From positions 744,674 through 808,673 of the forward strand of contig NW_004457729.1 of assembly GCF_000203815.1 (NCBI RefSeq): DNA of 64,000 nt. Reading direction: 5' to 3'. Positions 10,135-43,606 of the stretch are shown here, piece by piece; the stretch's first letter is position 1, and each line of letters starts with the position of its first letter. Origin of the DNA: Cavenderia fasciculata. Its lineage: Eukaryota > Evosea > Eumycetozoa > Acytosteliales > Cavenderiaceae. The notes beneath the pieces were generated by a model, which was not told the origin of the DNA, ran no database searches, and saw only the letters and a list, made by a program, of their open reading frames with translations. The translations under genes were made by a program, and so were the position numbers.

Positions 10135-13100
10135 ATGAGTAAAAGACAAACATCATCTTCAAACCTAAAGCAATCAAGCTTGACAAGTTTCTTTACACCT
10201 ACAACATCGACGACATCAACAACAACAACAACAAACAACAAGAAAAAGGATGAAATGGATGAAGATAAAGCACCTGTTGTCGTTGCAAAGAAATCATCAT
10301 CACCAAGAACAAAGAAACAAAGTCCAAATGTAAACATTGAAGAGGAAGAAGAAGAAGAAGAAGAAGAAGTGAAGCCAAAAAGAAAGAGTTCTTCAAAGGC
10401 AACAAAGAAACAAGATACACCAGCAACTACAACAACATCAACAAGTGGAAGAAGAATAGTTTCAACTAATGTAAATATTGGTTCAATGTTGGATAGTGAT
10501 TCAGAGGATGAAGTATTTTTGAAAAAGAGAAAAAAGAGACCAGATTCTGATGATGATTACAATCCTGATGGTAAAGATGATGAAGATGAGAGCTTATCAG
10601 AGGATGATGGTTTCATTGTACATCAAGAAGAGGATAGTGATGTGGATATTGGAAACAAACAAGATGACGATGATGATATTATGACATCATTTGATACAAC
10701 CTCAACTACTACTACAACTACTACAACTACCAATGTAATCAAGATACAACCACCAATTACAATGTCATTTGGTGAAGGACAAAGAATTATAATATCGGAA
10801 CGTGTTAGTTTACCAGCTGGAACACCAACATTTACTCGTGATGAAGCTGCCAAGAAAAAGTTACTAAAGGGTCTAGATACAATGGAAAAGATTAGATTGG
10901 ATGCAAGAGCAGCTGCTCAAAAGGAATTGGAAGGTGCACCAGAAGGTGATGATGAGGGTGGAGATGAAGAAGAAGAAGAAAAAACAAAAAAGAAACCTGC
11001 TGCTGCTGGAAAGGGAAAATCATCAACATCAAAAGCAGCAGCCAAAGTAAAATATACACCATTGGAACAACAATATGTAGATATTAAGAAACAGTATCCA
11101 GACACTGTACTAATGGTAGAGTGTGGATACAAATACAAGTTTTTTGGAAATGATGCAGAGGTTGCCAACAAGGTACTCAACATCTATTCCTATGTCGTAA
11201 AGAACTTTCTCAATGCAAGTATTCCAACTGTGCGTCTGTACCATCATCTACGTCGTCTTGTGCAAGCTGGATACAAGGTTGGTGTGGTCGAACAGATTGA
11301 AACCGCTGCTCTCAAAGCTGTCAGTGATTCAAAAGGTGGACCATTTGAAAGAAAACTCACTCGACTCTACACAACATCTACATTTATCGATGACCAAGTA
11401 GATGAAAGCAACAATACCTTGGATTTTAGCAACATATCACCCAATTATCTTGTAGCATTTTATGAAGACACTCAAATCAAAAAGATTGACTCACCAACCA
11501 CCAGAATATCATTTGTTGCCATTTCAGTTAGTACCGGTGAGATCATCTATGATTCATTTGATGATGATCTACTACGTAGTCATCTTGAAACTCGTCTAAC
11601 TCATCTCAAACCAACTGAAATTCTCTTACCACCAGAATACAAACAAAAACAAGATGATGGTACAGATCATTTTATTTATTCAAAATTTACTCGTTTAACT
11701 TCAAAGGTAAGAAAAAGAAGTAAAGAAATTAAAGAATAGAATAATTAATTAATTATCTCTTTTTTTTTTTTTTTTTTTTTTTAGACAATTAAACAATATT
11801 GTAAAACAAATAATGTTAGAGTTCAATTAATGAAAGAAAGTTTATATGATAAGGATTTATCAGTTTCAAATATAACAGATTTATATGACCAATTTGAAAA
11901 TAATCAAGAAACCCAAACTGCTCTATCAGCTGCATTGACCCTAGATTCTAGTCAAATAGTTTGTCTTTCTGTATTGACTACTTATTTGAAGGATTTTAAT
12001 CAATTTAATTCTGTATGATAAATCTAAAGTCAAGATAGATATCTATATTAAACTTATTAATTATTTTTTCTCAGATATTAAAAGTAGCATCAAATTTTAA
12101 AGCATTTAAAATATCAAATCATTTAATTTTACCACGATCAACTATTGATAATTTAGAAATACTTCAAAATGAAGATACAAAGAGTGAAAAAGGTTCATTA
12201 TATTGGGTAATGAATCGTACTCAAACTATTGCTGGTAAAAGATTATTTTTAAATTGGATTTGTAAACCTTTAATTGATTTAGAGTAAATAGATATAGAAA
12301 AAAGAAGAAGAGATCTTTCTATTTATTAATTTATTAATTTTATTTATTTATTTTTTTTAGATTAATTAAATTAAGACAAGAATCTGTAAAAGAATTATTA
12401 AATTGTATAGTGGAAAGAGTTAAATCGATTGAATTGATTGGATCATTTTTAAAATCGAGTATACCAGATTTACAAAGAAATCTATCAAAGGTATTTTACA
12501 AGAGTCAATGTAAACCAAAGGATTTCCTTTCGACTATGAAATCATTCCAAAGACTTTCAACTCTATTGTCTGATGTTTCTCGTCTTGGAGAGTTTAAATC
12601 AAAGGTACTAAAAGAGTTGTTTGGTATCAATGATGAATGGGCTGGTGAAAGAGTTGAAAAGTTTAGAGTCAAGGTTGACACTACTCTAAAGGCCATTTCA
12701 CACGATGAAGCAACATCAAATTGCAAAGAAAATATTTGGACCGATGAAACAAGATACCCTAAACTAGTCGAGACAAAGGCACATATCAAGGAGATACAAG
12801 ATAAACTCGACCAATATTTGAAAAAAGTAAGAAAAGAGGTTGGTAAACCTACACTGGAATATTTACATCAACCAAGACTTCATTTGGAGTATTTGATAGA
12901 GTTGCCAGTTGCTTTCAAACAAGTTCCAAAGGATTGGTTAAAGATTAATGCTACACAGAAGCTTTCACGTTATCATACACCCTATATCATAGAGAATGTT
13001 AAATTGTTGGCTCAACATCGTGAAAGATTGACTCTTTTGGCAAATGAAGCTTGGTTGGATTTCTTGGGCAAGGTTGGAAATGACTATACATTGTATAGTT

Positions 13101-14065
13101 CAATGATCACCAAGTTGGCATTATTGGATTGTTTAATGTCTTTGGCCAAGTTGGGTATGTCTGCAGGTTATGTTTTACCAGAGCTATCGTCAGAGCCAGG
13201 TATCAACGTAGTAGAGGGAAGACACCCAATTGTAGAAATGACACTTGGTCAAAAGGGAGGATCGTATGTTCCCAACTCGATCAAGTTGTCGTCGGCCGAG
13301 GAAAGAGCCATGATTATCACTGGTCCAAACATGGGTGGCAAGTCATCTTTTATTAGACAAACATCGTTGATTGTTATTATGGCACAGATGGGATCGTACG
13401 TGCCAGCCGAAAGCTGTACAATGGGTGTATTCGATGCCATCTACACTAGAATGGGAGCACGTGACAATATCGAGCACGGTAGCAGTACATTCTTTGTAGA
13501 GCTACAAGAGACGTCGCAGATCTTGGCCGAGGCGACACCAAGAACATTGGTCATTCTAGACGAGTTGGGTCGTGGCACTAGCACACATGATGGTGTAGCT
13601 ATTGCCTATTCATCACTACTCTATATCGTAGAGCAATTGAAATGCTTTTGTCTCTTTGTCACTCATTATCCATTGCTGTCACAAATCGAAAACATGTATC
13701 CTCAAAACGTATCAAATTATCACATGTCATTCCTAGAGGAGCAACAAAACAATCCAGACAATGGACAATACCAACAACAACCAAAGGTTATATTCCTATA
13801 CAAGGTGGTAAGAGGTGCCGCTAAAAACAGTTACGGTATCAATGTTGCCACACTTGCCAACCTACCACAACCTGTCATCCAATCGGCTACACTCAAATCA
13901 AATGAACTCAAACAATCAATCACCAAAAAGATATTCAACAACGACTCAAATAATCAATTTAAACAAATTATTCAACAAATTAAAGAATTATCTGTAAATG
14001 ATTCAAAGATTGATCAAAATCAAAGATTTGAAAAATTATTATCATTACAAAAGACAATAAATTAA
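10135..14065 (+). CDS. msh3: DNA mismatch repair protein MSH3
   Basis: Four exons: 10135-11706, 11785-12012, 12075-12283, 12361-14065; 1237 aa. Partner of MSH2 in MutS-beta, which recognises insertion/deletion loops. A PCNA-binding PIP box QSSLTSFF lies at residues 13-20, then an acidic/Lys-rich disordered region to about residue 300. The mismatch-binding domain reads TVLMVECGYKYKFFGNDAEV, which is MSH3-type; MSH6 has an FYE motif here instead. The clamp and lever follow. The ATPase has Walker A TGPNMGGKSS near residue 991, then STFFVELQET and Walker B LVILDELGRGTSTHDG. Length fits the family. The intron-1 acceptor follows 23 consecutive T residues (see findings). Confidence 0.95.
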
Positions 14066-22046: not shown

Positions 22047-22396
22047 CGATTGATTTGAATGAAAAATAAATATATAAAAAAAATGTAAAAAACAAAAAAA
22101 AAGGTGTTCTTTTTACTTTTAATTTAAAGTTTTTTTTTAAATAGGAATGGGGGTTGTTTAGATTTTAATCTCGAATAAATATCAAACTGGATTTCTATAT
22201 CCAAAAAAAAAACTCAGGAATTAATATGCCAGGTCTTGGAAATATTGGAAAAAAAGTAAAATACGCATTTACAATATGTAGTTTCGACCAAAATCGATGA
22301 AACCTAGATAAAATGATAGATAAAAACAAGGAGAATACGAGGGTAGCAGAGAAAAGCCCCAAAAAAAAAAACATGGGACTAAGAAACAAAAAGTAT

Positions 22397-22468
22397 CTCC
22401 CTTGCCGGGAATCGAACCCGGGGTGTCAGTGTGAAAGACTAAAGTGTTACCGACTACACCACAAAGGA
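22397..22468 (-). tRNA. tRNA-Glu (anticodon UUC)
   Basis: 72 nt. Acceptor stem TCCTTTG pairs with CAAGGGA (one G-U); D stem GTGT/ACAC with loop AGTCGGTA; anticodon stem TTAGT/ACTGA with loop CTTTCAC, giving anticodon TTC; T arm CCGGG-TTCGATT-CCCGG. No intron. An identical gene lies in the other arm at 29546. Confidence 0.9.
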
Positions 22469-22481
22469 ATTGACTTGTTGT

Positions 22482-23038
22482 GGAGTGTGCGATCCCGGGA
22501 ACGTAAAGGTCATAGGTTCGAATCCTGCCCTCGAACTTTACTTTTGGCGCCAACGTTTAACTTGACCACAATTGGGGGGATTGAGGAGAAAAACCATCCG
22601 ACTCTAGGGATCTAGAGACAGGACACCCCCACGGAAGGATGACCGGGTTAGTTTCCCCTTCTCAGTAGGAGATTGGGTAGCCAGACTGCAACAAGTAACG
22701 GGAAGGTAGTGGAGGACCTACTGGGCCGTCGCGATAGAAAGCCATCTGACATCTCAAATACAATATGCAACACGTAAAGACGAGTGTCCACAATGGGGAG
22801 TAAATCGGCGTGAGAGTTGAGAGCGGCAGTCGGTCTTGGACGCACCCAAGGCTTAAGGTTTCACCGCAAGTATGGTACTAAAATTAGAAGAAGATGGGTG
22901 CCATATTTGCGTCAACACCTTCATCTTCTTCTATTCTCTCTTCATCTATCAATAATAATATTAATAATATAATAATTTACTAAATAATAATAACATAGAA
23001 TAATTATATAACACAATATTACAGCCTATAGTGCTGAG

Positions 23039-23069
<31 letters not shown>

Positions 23070-23340
23070 CGATATCTTTAACCAATTTATTTTTAGAACA
23101 AGCAACAACCCAAAACAATCCAACATGCTTGACACTATACAATAAGATACATGATCAACGTCCATATAACATGTATCATAGACATGGACAACCCCCAGAA
23201 CAAATTAACTTTAATTCTTCTCGAGATAATCTTTATTTCTTGCTGGTCAATTAAAATGTATAATTAATAAAACTTTGTAACTTCTGAGTACTACTCTTCC
23301 CGATAGGAGAGAACAGGAAAAGAATTACTTTAAAAAAAAA
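22482..23340 (+). mobile_element. SINE-like element, left copy, 5'-truncated
   Basis: Same element as 28604-29489 in opposite orientation. It begins at GGAGTGTGCGATCCCGGGAACG, having lost the first part of the tRNA-like head, but keeps a perfect B box GGTTCGAATCC at 22515-22525. The body includes a GC-rich stretch, an internal run of 30 A (23039-23068), and ends in nine A (23332-23340). No protein of its own is evident. The target duplication seen on the right copy is missing here, consistent with rearrangement of both flanks. Confidence 0.7.
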
Positions 23341-23628
23341 GGTCCACTAAGACGGATATCACTATTATTAATTAACCGAGTTTGGAATTTTTCTGTAATA
23401 GAGAGAAAGAGATAGAAACAGAGAATTACGTATAGAGTACTATAGAACTTCACTCAATCATCAACTATCTTCAACTATCTTTTATCAACATTACTATTTC
23501 TTTTCACACTCACTAAAAGCCACAACTAATTGCCCTAGTGTGCCCCCTTGTTCAATTATTAAAATCATTATCATTATTATAAATAAGGGGCGCGAGCGAG
23601 CACAAGCACTGCCTATATCAAAGATCAC

Positions 23629-28292: not shown

Positions 28293-28591
28293 ATTAATAA
28301 AATTAGATCAAATATATGCAGTCTGTGATGCAAAGAAGAATTCTTTGATATAGGCAGTGGTTGTGCTCGCTCGCACCCCTTATTTAAAATAATGATAATG
28401 ATATAAATAATTGAACAAGGGGGCACACTAGGGCAATTAGTTGTGGCTTTTATTGAGTGTGAAAAGAAATAGTAATGTTGATAAAAGATAGTTGAAGATC
28501 GTTGATGATTGAGTGAAGTTCTATAGTACTCTATACGTAATTCTCTGTTTCTATCTCTTTCTCTCTATTACAGAAAAATTCCAAACTGTCA

Positions 28592-28603
28592 TCCTATCAT
28601 GCT
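28592..28603. repeat. Target-site duplication, tail side
   Basis: TCCTATCATGCT, directly repeated at 29490-29501. It abuts the poly(A) tail (T run on the plus strand) of the SINE-like element; the final T may belong to the tail. Confidence 0.7.
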
Positions 28604-28877
28604 TTTTTTTTTTTTAAAGTAATTCTTTTCCTGTTCTCTCCTATCGGGAAGAGTAGTACTCAGAAGTTACAAAGTTTTATTAATTATACTTTTTAATTGA
28701 CCAGCAAGAAATAAAGATTATCTCGAGAAGAATTAAAGTTAATTTGTTCTGGGGGTTGTCCATGTCTATGATACATGTTATATGGACGTTGATCATGTAT
28801 CTTATTGTATAGTGTCAAGCATGTTGGATTGTTTTGGGTTGTTGCTTGTTCTAAAAATAAATTGGTTAAAGATATCG

Positions 28878-28908
<31 letters not shown>

Positions 28909-29489
28909 CTCAGCACTATAGGCTGTAATATTGTGTTATATAATTATTCTATGTTATTATTATTTAGTAAATTATTATATTATTAATATTATTATTGATA
29001 GATGAAGAGAGAATAGAAGAAGATGAAGGTGTTGACGCAAATATGGCACCCATCTTCTTCTAATTTTAGTACCATACTTGCGGTGAAACCTTAAGCCTTG
29101 GGTGCGTCCAAGACCGACTGCCGCTCTCAACTCTCACGCCGATTTACTCCCCATTGTGGACACTCGTCTTTACGTGTTGCATATTGTATTTGAGATGTCA
29201 GATGGCTTTCTATCGCGACGGCCCAGTAGGTCCTCCACTACCTTCCCGTTACTTGTTGCAGTCTGGCTACCCAATCTCCTACTGAGAAGGGGAAACTAAC
29301 CCGGTCATCCTTCCGTGGGGGTGTCCTGTCTCTAGATCCCTAGAGTCGGATGGTTTTTCTCCTCAATCCCCCAATTGTGGTCAAGTTAAACGTTGGCGCC
29401 AAAAGTAAAGTTCGAGGGCAGGATTCGAACCTATGACCTTTACGTTCCCGGGGTAGCACACTCCCGACTCACTTGCCACGCCATGCCCG
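28604..29489 (-). mobile_element. SINE-like retroposon, about 890 bp, with target-site duplication
   Basis: Read on the minus strand: a tRNA-like head beginning CGGGCATGGCGTGGCAAGTG with an A-box-like TGGCAAGTGAGTCGG and a perfect B box GGTTCGAATCC (29421-29431), a GC-rich body, an internal A(30) tract, more unique sequence, and a terminal A(12) tail. It is bounded by direct repeats TCCTATCATGCT at 28592-28603 and 29490-29501. tRNA-derived Pol III promoter, no coding capacity, poly(A) tail and target duplication are the defining SINE features. No named family is recognised. Probably mobilised by an unrelated LINE-type machinery (inference). Confidence 0.75.
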
Positions 29490-29501
29490 TCCTATCATGC
29501 T
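29490..29501. repeat. Target-site duplication, head side
   Basis: TCCTATCATGCT, identical to 28592-28603, abutting the tRNA-like head of the SINE-like element. It lies 45 bp before the tRNA-Glu gene. Confidence 0.7.
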
Positions 29502-29545
29502 CTATAAATAGGGCCAAAGTCGACCAAACAACACAACAAGTCAAT

Positions 29546-29617
29546 TCCTTTGTGGTGTAGTCGGTAACACTTTAGTCTTTCACACTGACACCCCGGGTTC
29601 GATTCCCGGCAAGGGAG
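29546..29617 (+). tRNA. tRNA-Glu (anticodon UUC)
   Basis: Identical 72-nt cloverleaf to 22397-22468: acceptor TCCTTTG/CAAGGGA, anticodon loop CTTTCAC, T arm CCGGG-TTCGATT-CCCGG. TATAAATAG at about 29503-29511, 35 bp upstream, may contribute to expression; that segment is missing from the left arm. A T-rich stretch downstream (from about 29643) can terminate Pol III. Confidence 0.9.
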
Positions 29618-29763
29618 ATACTTTTTGTTTCTTGGTCCCATGTTTTTTTTTTTTGGGGCTTTTCTCTACTACCCTCGTATTCTCCTTGTTTTTATCTATC
29701 ATTTTATCTAGGTTTCATCGATTTTGGTCGAAACCACATATTGTAAATGCGTATTTTACTTTA

Positions 29764-30176
29764 TTCCAAAATTATTATTTTTTTTTACCATCTCTATGAT
29801 ATATTTTAAATCTCCTGGAATAGGTTGATATATACTGAAAGAATATTGATAACATTATATATGATACATAATCTTCAAGACTATCAGCTCTACAGGGATT
29901 CTACAATCGGTCATCAAGAACCATTAAGACATTCATACCAATTCCAATTAATCAGACTACTATCATAACTTTACTATTATTAATAATAATAAAAATATTT
30001 TCCCTATATCACCATCGGATCCATATTGATATTAATAATATAAAAAACCAATTAATTAATGAAAAAAAAAGTGGAACTTCACAAAAAAACTGATGACAAA
30101 GCCACCATCATCAGTATTTTAATTTCATCTTGCTCTCTCAGAAGTAGTATTTAAAGGTTATATATAGATAGATAGA
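29764..30176. other. Intergenic region before SPC3
   Basis: 413 bp of AT-rich DNA after the outer edge of the right arm. No gene, RNA or repeat recognised; the last part is the presumed promoter of the signal peptidase gene. Confidence 0.5.
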
Positions 30177-39725: not shown

Positions 39726-42700
39726 ATGGATTTATATGTTACATTGAGACATAGTCCTAATTGTTTTGTCAATCTACCTTTAAAGATTGCTCATACTCTT
39801 GCTCAAGTATGTATACATATACATATACATATAATACCCTTCCTTTTATTTGACTAATTTGTTATATATATATATATCTTAGAGAAATGAATCAACCCAA
39901 TTAATATTAGAATTGAAATGGTATGATAAAGCAAATAAAGAGGATAAATATGCTTTTGTTGGATGGTCTGGTGGTAGTAGTAGTAGCATGGGTAATAACC
40001 ATCATCATCATCACAATGATTCATTAGAGATGAGTCAAGAGATGGCACAGTGCTTGGGATTGGTAGAAGGTCAGATGATTCGTTTAAAGGCTGCTTCGGC
40101 GAGTGCAGTACAGAAAGCAACTACTGTAGAGGTGGAACCAGTGACTAGCGACGATTGGGAGATCTTAGAGGTACATGCCGAGTATCTAGAGGAACAATTG
40201 TTGAATCAAATCAACGTTGTATCAAGTGGTCAGATCATTCCAATTTGGATACACCAAAAGATTGTAATTCATTTACGTGTAATTGATGTTACACCGAAAT
40301 CATCGTCATCATCATCATCTAATCAACCATCGGCTGTCAAATTGTCAAATGATTCAGAGATTATAGTTGCACCTAAACCTCGTAATATTCCATCATCCTC
40401 TTCATCCTCATCATCTCGGTCTTATAATTCATTACTTCCACGTCACCTTTATATTCAACAAGAATCATCTTTAGTTGACTCAGACAACAATGGACTATTG
40501 TCTTCAACAACAGTATACATATCATTAAATGCAATGAAAGAATATGAATGGAATCAAGGTGATATAGTTGAAATCAGTCAAATCAAATCAAAAGATCAAT
40601 TACCCTCAATACTACAATCATCAAGTGAATCAACAGATGCTGAAGATAATCAACAACAACAACAACAACAAGGACAACAACAACAACAACCAATAATTAA
40701 AAGAAAATGTATTTATGCTAGAGTTTATAGTTCCCAAGAGGTTGTTGGAAAATTGATAGTAAAAAGTGATCAACATATAATTGTTGGAAAGAATCTTAGA
40801 TATCTTTTACAATTAAATGTTAATACACAGATCAAAGTTAGAATATTGCCATCTCATTCTATTCCAATTTGTCCAATCAGTGGAGTACAAATCAAACAGG
40901 TGGTGTGGCGTAACAGTCCTCTTGAATTTGCACCAAAACCTCCTAGAATCTCACTACTCCCTCCACAACTATTACACCAAGTCGTCAAAGAATGGTCACA
41001 TATTTATTTAAAAGAAAACAACAAAGACAATCAACAACAACCTAAAGCGATGGTTCCATTAGTAAATGGATCAATTATAACTATTCCACCAATTAAAAAT
41101 TATTCAACCAATTCAATTGATATTCAATTTCATTTTAATCAACAACAACAACAACAACAAATGTCATCTCAACAACAACAACAGGGAGGTGGTAATAGAC
41201 AAATGCATCCACAACAAAGACAAAATAATCAAGAATTATTAAATGTAATTGGAAATGTACTTAGTAATCAAATTGATAATTTAGTTGATCAACCTAATCC
41301 TCAACAACAACAACAACAACAATCATCTCAGTCATCTCAACAAAATCAATATCAATTAATTCATGGAGTATTTATGATAAATGATGAAATATTTAATCAA
41401 GATAGAATGATTATATCATTTGAAAAGAATGATGGTAGTAAATTGGAACCATTGGAAGATTATGTAGATATTAGTGATAGATTGTTTGATAGAATTGGTG
41501 GTATGGATAAATTGATTGATCAAGCCAAAGACTATTTATCGTTACTCGTTAGAAAGGATTATGGAATGTTACGTAACCAACTCAATGCACCTGGAAATGG
41601 TGGTGTGTTGATCACTGGATCACACGGATCTGGTAAATCAATGTTGGCTAGTGCTTTGGCAGGTTACTATGTTCACCTTGACGAATCATTAACATTTGTC
41701 GTTCGTTTAAATTGTCAATTACTCAAAGAAACAAAGGTCGAACGTATTAGACAAACTCTAACTCCAATCTTTACAAGAGCATATCTTTCAAAACCTTCTA
41801 TTATCATTTTAGAAGATTTAGATATTATACTTCCAAATCCAAATGAACAAGATGTAAATATTAAATTAAAATATTAAAATATTATTTATATTGATCAATA
41901 TTTTATTCTATTTTTCTTAGCCTGGATCAAAAATTAGATGTTTACAAATATCAAATTATATTAAAAAATTGATTGGAGTTTGTAGAGATCGAAATGCACC
42001 AATTGTATTGATTGCCACGAGTCAATCTATACAATCATTGTACAAGGATTTCCAAACCCCCGATGTAATGGGGTTGACACTTGAAATCCAACCACCATCA
42101 AGAGATGACCGTGCAGACATTTTCTTTAAATTGTTAAAGAGGTTGGATTTACAAGTCGAAGATGACAATGAAAAAGTGGCACTTGGACGATTTGCTTCAT
42201 CTCTAGAGGGTTATCTTGGATGTGATATTGAAAGATTAATAGAGCGTGTCATTTATCTTAATCGTAGTAATAGTAATAATAATAATAATCCACAACAATC
42301 GACAGTGACATTAAAAGGAATGCATTTGGCCAAAGAAGGATATACACCCATTTCACTCAAAGGTGTTAAATTACATCAATCAGATGCAGGCAAATGGAAT
42401 GATATTGGTGGATTAAAAGATGTAAGGTCCATGATGAAAGAGACGATTGGGTGGCCTAGTAAATACCCCCTTCTCTTTGCGTCGGCACCTATCCGTATGC
42501 GTAGTGGATTGTTGTTGTACGGCCCACCGGGTACAGGCAAGACGATGCTAGCGTCGAGTATTGCGGGTGAGTGCGGACTCAATTTTATCAGTGTCAAGGG
42601 TCCAGAGTTGCTTAACAAGTATATTGGGTCTAGTGAACAGGGTGTACGAGACATCTTTTCACGTGCGTCGTCTGCATCGCCTTGTGTACTCTTTTTTGAC

Positions 42701-43606
42701 GAGTTTGACTCGATTGCGCCGCGTCGTGGACACGATAGCACCGGTGTGACCGATCGTGTTGTCAACCAGTTTCTCACTGAACTCGATGGTGTAGAGGGAT
42801 TGGCAGGTGTCTATGTCTTGGCGGCTACCAGTCGTCCCGACCTCATCGACCCCGCTCTCCTCAGACCGGGTAGACTCGACAAGTCACTCTACTGCAACAT
42901 TCCAGAACGAGATGAGCGTCTAGAGATCATCACCATCCTCGCCAACAAAATGCGTATTGACGAAGAGTCACAAAACTCTTTGGCCGAGTTGGCAGACACC
43001 TCTGAAGGGTACACTGGTGCCGATCTCAGAGCCATCATGTACAACTCTCAATTGAAATCAATTCATGAATTAATGCATAAAAAAGAACAAGAAAAGAAAG
43101 AAAAAAGAGAAAAAGAGGAAAATGATAAACAACTTGGAGGTGGAGTAGCAGGAGTTGGAGGAGAAAGTATTTTAGGAAATAATATAGTTATTTTTGAAAA
43201 TATTGAAAATAATAATAATAATAATAGTAGAATGACAAATGAACAAAGAAACAAATTAATTCAAAAGATTGATGAAATTAAAACAACATTTGGTCAACAA
43301 ATAGATGATGAAAATAATAATAGAAATAATAATAATAATAGTAATGGAAATAATGAACAACCAATAATCAAGAAAATTCATTTTGAAGAATCTTTTAAAC
43401 AATCATCTCCATCGGTTCCTCCATCTGAAAGAACACGTTATGAAAAAATGTTTGTATCATCAAATTATTATATAATTAGTGTTTGTATTAGTTAGTAGTA
43501 TTAATATATTATTATTATTTACATTTCTAGATATAAAAACTTTTTAAAAGAGAGAGGATCTGTGACAGGTACGAAAAAAGAAGGAATGAAACAAACTTTG
43601 GCATAA
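39726..43606 (+). CDS. pex1: Peroxisome biogenesis factor 1 (AAA ATPase)
   Basis: Four exons: 39726-39806, 39883-41853, 41921-43449, 43531-43606; 1218 aa (human about 1283). With PEX6 it extracts ubiquitinated PEX5 from the peroxisome membrane. N-terminal double-psi-barrel region includes VEPVTSDDWEILEVHAEYLE, a PEX1 hallmark. D1 ATPase has Walker A GSHGSGKS and Walker B-like IIILEDLDII; D2 has GPPGTGKT, LFFDEFDSIAPRRG and the SRH region ATSRPDLIDPALLRPGRLD. Poly-Gln and poly-Asn insertions lie between domains. The last intron uses a GTTTGT donor, giving RYEKIYKNFLKERGSVTG and the end KQTLA. D2 is GC-richer than the rest. Confidence 0.95.

Follow-up and report, generated by a model that had tools for sequence, protein, structure and literature searches.

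A tRNA-gene-adjacent, SINE-like family with LINE-derived tails in Cavenderia fasciculata

The insertion at 28604-29489 of a 64,000-nt stretch of Cavenderia fasciculata DNA (the whole of which is called the window here) belongs to a real, largely young family of LINE-tailed, SINE-like elements that lie beside tRNA genes. The reading that we prefer, with a probability of roughly 0.65, is that of a non-autonomous SINE-like element of about 30 copies, which would use the machinery of a TRE5-type LINE and would have been re-tailed by template switching. The family is interesting mainly through its visible tail replacement; the origin of SINEs and their adaptation to changing LINE partners are usually deduced from old, degraded families. 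This small genome preserves six junctions, two variants of the head and several lineages of LINE tail in some 30 copies, many of them near-identical; as these copies also offer a candidate switching signal, CTCC*TC, and share a constant genomic address, the change of LINE partners can be put to a direct test. The window also contains two ORFs which, to judge by their motifs, resemble a MutS-type mismatch repair protein (10135-14065) and a tandem-AAA, peroxin-1-like protein (39988-43495).

An earlier note, made from the letters of the window, had described on the minus strand an A-box-like sequence, a perfect B box, a GC-rich body, an internal A30 and a terminal A tail, bounded by a 12-bp target-site duplication (TSD), and all of these parts could be located (Table 1). 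In element positions the A-box-like stretch occupies 12-26 and the B box 59-69, the GC-rich part runs to 454, and from 455 the sequence is AT-rich with the A30 at 582-611, followed by the terminal A tail; the GC content is 0.513 in head and body, 0.257 in the tail and 0.338 in the whole window. The TSD is exact on both sides, and its 12 bp are present exactly twice in the window, each time directly bordering the element. The tRNA-Glu gene, placed by the note at 45 bp, starts 55 bp from the element end and 43 bp past the TSD, a TRE5-like position adjoining a tRNA gene and a site of the type that dictyostelid retroelements were said to favour. The internal A tract had been taken as a sign of two modules; the element is indeed composite, but the seam lies at 29035/29036 and, because everything from position 455 is LINE 3' end, the A30 is a feature of the LINE and not a module boundary. 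No ATG-started ORF of more than 48 aa overlaps the element (the longest has 48 aa), and the alternative that it is part of a larger coding element therefore falls away.

Table 1. Features of the SINE-like element, its second copy and the adjoining tRNA genes (window coordinates)
Feature	Position	Strand	Remarks
Complete SINE-like element, S form, 886 bp	28604..29489	-	Full-length copy with TSD
TSD at element 5' end	29490..29501	.	Exact repeat TCCTATCATGCT
TSD at element 3' end	28592..28603	.	Exact repeat TCCTATCATGCT
Head and body, non-coding, 51% GC, predicted hairpin at end	29036..29489	-	Common to S, M and L forms
LINE-derived tail, 3' UTR of TRE5-like LINE, 26% GC	28604..29035	-	1/355 bases differ from LINE copy L030
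Internal A30 tract	28879..28908	-	Feature of LINE 3' UTR
B box GGTTCGAATCC, putative internal Pol III promoter element	29421..29431	-	Perfect match
Weak A-box-like stretch TGGCAAGTGAGTCGG	29464..29478	-	1.8 bits against tRNA-trained matrix
Target tRNA-Glu gene	29545..29618	+	ARAGORN and Rfam
Second copy (L008), 5'-truncated at element position 26	22482..23340	+	No TSD found, 12 bp from tRNA-Glu
tRNA-Glu adjoining second copy	22396..22469	-	ARAGORN

When the genome (31.0 Mb, 21 contigs) was searched, head/body sequence was found at 30 places (32 matches, four of them forming two split copies), and not just in the two arms of a local repeat, the outcome that had been named as arguing against a SINE. 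All 30 first-look candidates were scored, 28 being read with their flanks (L001-L028) and two as short stretches (L064, L065). Every one of the 28 copies with flanks lies upstream of an oppositely oriented tRNA gene, at 55-70 bp in 24 cases and at 12, 125, 146 and 680 bp in the remaining four, with a 5'-truncated LINE in between in the last of these, and the targeted tRNA genes span 15 isotypes. Under a rule that asks for a score of at least 10, at most 1 mismatch and a location at the tail end, 18 of the 28 have a TSD of 12-21 bp, against 4 of 756 mismatched flank-pair controls, those of L012, L015 and L020 being weaker (AT-rich, T-rich or simple repeats); the expectation that dispersed copies carry their own TSD thus holds for these 18, while the other 10 fail, some of them being rearranged. 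The sequence starts at element positions 1-4 in 19 of the 30 places and is 5'-truncated in 11, and a head without a tail was found at none of them. The family is therefore dispersed and non-coding, with TSDs and an A tail, as SINEs in the broad sense are, and it inserts as TRE5 elements do, about 50 bp upstream of tRNA genes and in opposite orientation.

Tails of LINE and SINE copies in the same orientation are stacked at L026, L036, L010, L019 and L024, at L026 beside one tRNA-Cys; in such stacks the tail closest to the tRNA gene is probably the youngest, and the order could date insertions. At its 5' junction the truncated start of L007 is separated from the presumed TSD by about eleven additional bases, a T run with a final A, which look as if they were an untemplated addition.

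The tRNA-Glu gene of the window and its flanks form an inverted duplicate (22245-22489 and 29525-29770, ~7 kb apart), and 127 bp of the tRNA-Glu 3' flank have genome matches only in these two arms. The second copy of the element lies inside this inverted repeat, with junctions unlike those of the first. A 246-bp repeat beyond the element (28342-28587 and 23379-23624) occurs at 26 places in the genome, at least 5 copies of it 57-68 bp from tRNA genes (e.g. C7:974277, C12:1032957, C7:133516), and is perhaps the solo LTR of a tRNA-targeting element. That the arms are one duplicated insertion, to which the 127 bp would point, is the less likely reading: because the 246-bp repeat is found at 26 places and the element copies end differently, independent insertion or conversion is likelier.

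As for the tail, other loci with the same tail have upstream of it an open frame in which Pfam identifies a reverse transcriptase (E 6.2e-12), and the tail is thus the 3' end of a LINE. Over 355 tail bases compared with LINE copy L030, S copies show 0-1 differences in 13 of 19 cases and more in the other 6, the tails used being those of 23 of the 28 copies (all but L009, L017, L021, L023 and L028). The A tract is likewise found in LINE copies L030, L043, L050 and L051, where it has 27-31 A. Two copies labelled LINE, L041 and L047, overlap SINE copies L024 and L019, and their nearest-LINE calls were set aside, as was a clade test of the S form (p-AU 8.4e-05) that included these rows. LINE copies in L061, L062, L063 and L026 start some 50-62 bp from tRNA-Pro, tRNA-Gly, tRNA-Lys and tRNA-Cys genes (boundaries approximate). 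No 5'-complete LINE was seen among the LINE copies read (71 of 108 candidates scored); the LINE copy whose open frame is the longest found (C21, 819 aa) stops at its own insertion point with no 5' UTR seen. In the protein translated from the open frame upstream of the tail the first three residues are probably flank, because the match to longer LINE copies starts at residue 4. A search for the most upstream LINE part seen found it at six places in the genome, none of which has a head. ORF1 or ORF2 coding capacity is absent from the element, the S form having the short ATG ORFs described above and the L form no more of the LINE frame than its final ~120 codons.

Elements of this kind have been tabulated by Spaller et al. 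2016 (PMC5006619), where Table 1 places Df_TRE5-A.1, A.2 and A.3 at 45-88, 31-98 and 39-67 bp upstream of tRNA genes. In the accessible text each of the three is marked as without a full-length consensus, yet one full-length A.1 copy is given, and Df_TRE5-A.2 is listed with 1275 bp and 20 copies. The tRNA-proximal LINE copies described here fit the Df_TRE5-A elements as they appear in that text, and the published 1275-bp Df_TRE5-A.2 and our long form, which has 1279-1285 bp, may be the same repeat. The words "SINE" and "non-autonomous" are absent from the main text of that paper as available, and there was no dictyostelid SINE among the matches listed in the open-access literature.

A hairpin is predicted at the end of head and body, where CGCAAGTATGG (29072-29082) pairs with CCATATTTGCG (29036-29046), and the head ends with CATATTTGCG, or nearly so, just past it. 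Six junctions share this one head end within ~2 nt; their LINE entry points differ. The S junction accounts for 20 of the 30 places (L003 and L009 included), the L junction for five (L019, L020, L021, L023, L028) and the M junction for two (L022, L024), with three further junctions of one copy each (L014, L064, L065). In the 965-bp LINE copy of L061 the L, M and S entry points fall at 136, 417 and 537, each with CTCC before it and TC first, and CTCCTC is found in these 965 bp only at 132, 413 and 533, coinciding with the three main junctions; the motif CTCC*TC was noticed post hoc and the L064 junction departs from it.

The loop of the hairpin comes in two kinds that follow the junctions without exception, the S loop being present in 22 copies (those with the S junction, L014 and L065) and the other loop in 8 (L, M and L064); the Fisher probability of 1.7e-07 for this linkage counts related copies as independent. 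This linkage favours S and L lineages that propagate as units over one-off fusions. The S loop contains AGAAGAAGATG (29051-29061), the reverse complement of CATCTTCTTCT (29015-29025) just past the S junction, which suggests that this loop was copied from the tail start in a snap-back event, and because the S loop looks copied from sequence that follows the S junction, the L loop would be the older state.

Near-identical heads and bodies carry different kinds of LINE tail, and the heads are thus far more uniform than the tails, a contrast that the first part of the tail displays best. The heads of L019 and L020, which sit on different contigs, have 0 differences in 444 positions, and their tails are ~5% apart, each closest to a different LINE lineage. 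Over the 528 bp before the A tract, in an identity matrix holding four long-form copies, L019 is 99.8% identical to the LINE of L051/L043/L030 but 94.8% to L020 and 94.6% to L021. L020 and L021 match the LINE at L055/L036 with 99.8% and 99.6% identity, and L023, the fourth long form, has its closest LINE in L029 (98.1%). Forcing the tails of L019 and L020 into one clade was rejected with p-AU 1.7e-38 (2 rows against 8), on a tree holding two of the five long-form copies (without L021, L023 and L028) and eight of ten intended LINE copies. Among L001-L014 the bodies differ by 0-6 mismatches per 351, whereas the first tail part has up to 14 per 129; the second tail part is less divergent (0-7 of ~259 in most copies). 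The S-form copy L013 has the kind of tail found in L020, with 12 mismatches in 119 columns as in the second LINE copy in L036, and L011 and L012 have a third kind, with 14 mismatches in the first tail part and bodies 2-3 mismatches from the window copy.

The name "tRNA-headed" that the earlier note gave the element is not borne out. At E<=10 Rfam detects no tRNA in the head, and the similarity of the head to 21 tRNA genes, matched by 3 of 500 shuffles with the B box in place, is matched by 228 of 500 without it; as the B box alone is tRNA-like, "tRNA-derived" is not supported, and the tRNA-related 5' region of a tRNA-derived SINE would seem to be lacking. The head does not fold like a tRNA either. 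Its predicted fold has a z of 0.97 and that of the body -0.95, neither of which clearly beats shuffles. Rfam searches of a 9-kb region, the head, head plus body and the L019 head returned the two tRNA-Glu genes and otherwise sub-gathering matches. The score of the B box has no equal in ~124 kb of control strand (the window on both strands with tRNA and element regions masked), while the total for A and B boxes is matched or beaten at two control places, the best A-box position reaching only the weak score given in Table 1, so that the A box is, as in the note, a resemblance. Pol III could be stopped by the T runs at element positions 86 (TTTT) and 633 (TTTTT), and TTTT is the first T run in 5 of 21 tRNA genes; these T runs and the weak A box would speak against a standard Pol III unit, and Pol III transcription of the element is putative. 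A scan for bacterial promoters and terminators was discarded as not meaningful for a eukaryote.

From the sequences the following course of events may be proposed. A transcript of the element would consist of a non-coding head/body RNA of ~454 nt, with the B box near its 5' end and the hairpin at its 3' end, and of the LINE-derived tail. Once bound to the tail, LINE proteins would reverse-transcribe the RNA in a target-primed reaction, upstream of tRNA genes at a distance of ~40-60 bp; TSDs of 12-21 bp and the occasional 5' truncation would result, and the targeting of tRNA genes would follow from the borrowed LINE machinery. An enzyme copying LINE RNA would at times leave it at CTCC*TC and resume at the head RNA's 3' end, and a reverse transcriptase that leaves the LINE template for the 3' end of another RNA would explain why there is one head end with many LINE entry points; the MINE elements of Magnaporthe are closely parallel in this. 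Such template switching, or later switches within the common tail, would put the tails of several LINE lineages on near-identical heads. Both this switching and trans-mobilisation are putative, the latter having a parallel in D. discoideum, where according to the accessible text of PMC5391098 the ORF2-less TRE5-A.2 moves with help in trans, and where 80.2% of tagged insertions lie 47+/-3 bp upstream of tRNA genes.

More tentatively, the family may be a long-lived lineage of non-coding RNA in which one B-box head has kept its own sequence and repeatedly swapped its tails, by template switching at the fixed signal CTCC*TC, for those of the TRE5 lineage active at the time, inheriting that lineage's safe site beside tRNA genes in the process; if so, the B box of the head could attract Pol III factors and mark the landing zone for later insertions.

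The alternatives to be weighed overlap with the preferred reading and with one another, and their odds need not sum to one. Head and body could be a non-coding RNA of the cell, immobile by itself, with the copies, or a few founders, being dead-end LINE RNA fusions made by template switching. The anatomy is that of WEIRD-MGL of Magnaporthe, for which the accessible text of PMC2104539 gives a full-length 5' ncRNA, a 5'-truncated LINE, a hot spot GCC*A/U, direct repeats of 10-20 bp and no solo head found. An ncRNA 5' part joined to a 5'-truncated LINE, direct repeats and hot-spot junctions (the motif being a post hoc one) are all seen here, and the near-uniform bodies beside the more divergent first tail part agree with it. 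It is nevertheless rather unlikely, given that no tail-less head was found among the 30 places and that loop type and junction class are linked in the way expected of lineages propagating as units. A hidden source RNA for head and body is conceivable all the same. The head could also be a LINE leader, because no LINE copy read reaches a LINE 5' end, and the element would then be an internally deleted TRE5, like TRE5-A.2 of D. discoideum or the R2 SIDEs, with the LINE's own 5' leader fused to its 3' end. Non-autonomous TRE5-A.2 is known in D. discoideum (PMC5633606 and PMC5391098, in their accessible parts), and the length of our long form is close to that of Df_TRE5-A.2. We regard such a deletion as unlikely, since in the 30 head places the LINE part after the head starts no further than ~120 codons ahead of the ORF stop, the six places found for the most upstream LINE part seen have no head, and one head end across six junctions is hardly to be expected from random deletions.

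A classical tRNA-derived SINE of two modules separated by the A30, to which the perfect B box at position 59, the A-box-like stretch, the TSD and the A tail would all point, is improbable in view of the tRNA results above and of the position of the A30 inside the LINE-derived part. That the mosaics of head and tail were made by gene conversion between DNA copies and not by RNA template switching is more doubtful again; the stacking at one tRNA gene (L026) and other clusters (L036) offer chances for it, but the three main junctions are the three CTCCTC sites of the LINE, the discordant L019 and L020 are on different contigs, and conversion leaves the first fusion of head and LINE unexplained.

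Among known systems, SINEs with LINE-derived tails likewise have a B-box head, a LINE tail, an A tail, TSDs and no ORF, and the re-tailed element preferred here differs from them in its ~30 copies, its 0.9-1.3 kb, a weak A box, no tRNA fold and a tail that varies in length and lineage; for a SINE this is a low copy number and a large size. The U6/L1 and other LINE-1 RNA chimeras of mammals also join LINE RNA to other RNAs (PMC13174262 and PMC4476161, as far as accessible), though without tRNA-gene targeting, and the head here has no match to a known RNA family. R2 and R2/R1 SIDEs of Drosophila are non-autonomous and share the target of a site-specific LINE, but the SIDE head is the LINE's own 5' ribozyme according to the available text of PMC3414825. 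Dictyostelid TRE5 elements (Df_TRE5-A and -B, D. discoideum TRE5-A.1 and A.2) lie upstream of tRNA genes as the element does, at 31-98 bp for Df_TRE5-A.1 to A.3 (PMC5006619, Table 1), in the same opposite orientation to the tRNA gene (PMC5911963, accessible text) and with an oligo(A) end, and a LINE of this type shares the 3' tail; the element differs from them in having no ORF and a non-coding 5' half unlike the LINE sequence read, whereas D. discoideum TRE5-A.2 is described in the available part of PMC5391098 as lacking ORF2 only. The MINE (WEIRD-MGL) of Magnaporthe grisea has in common with it an ncRNA 3' end joined to a 5'-truncated LINE, direct repeats and that no solo head was found; as far as the accessible text of PMC2104539 goes, its hot spot is GCC*A/U and not CTCC*TC, and its 33 elements use 28 sites, whereas here the S junction dominates (20 of 30) and is linked to a head variant, the copies look propagated, and their site adjoins tRNA genes.
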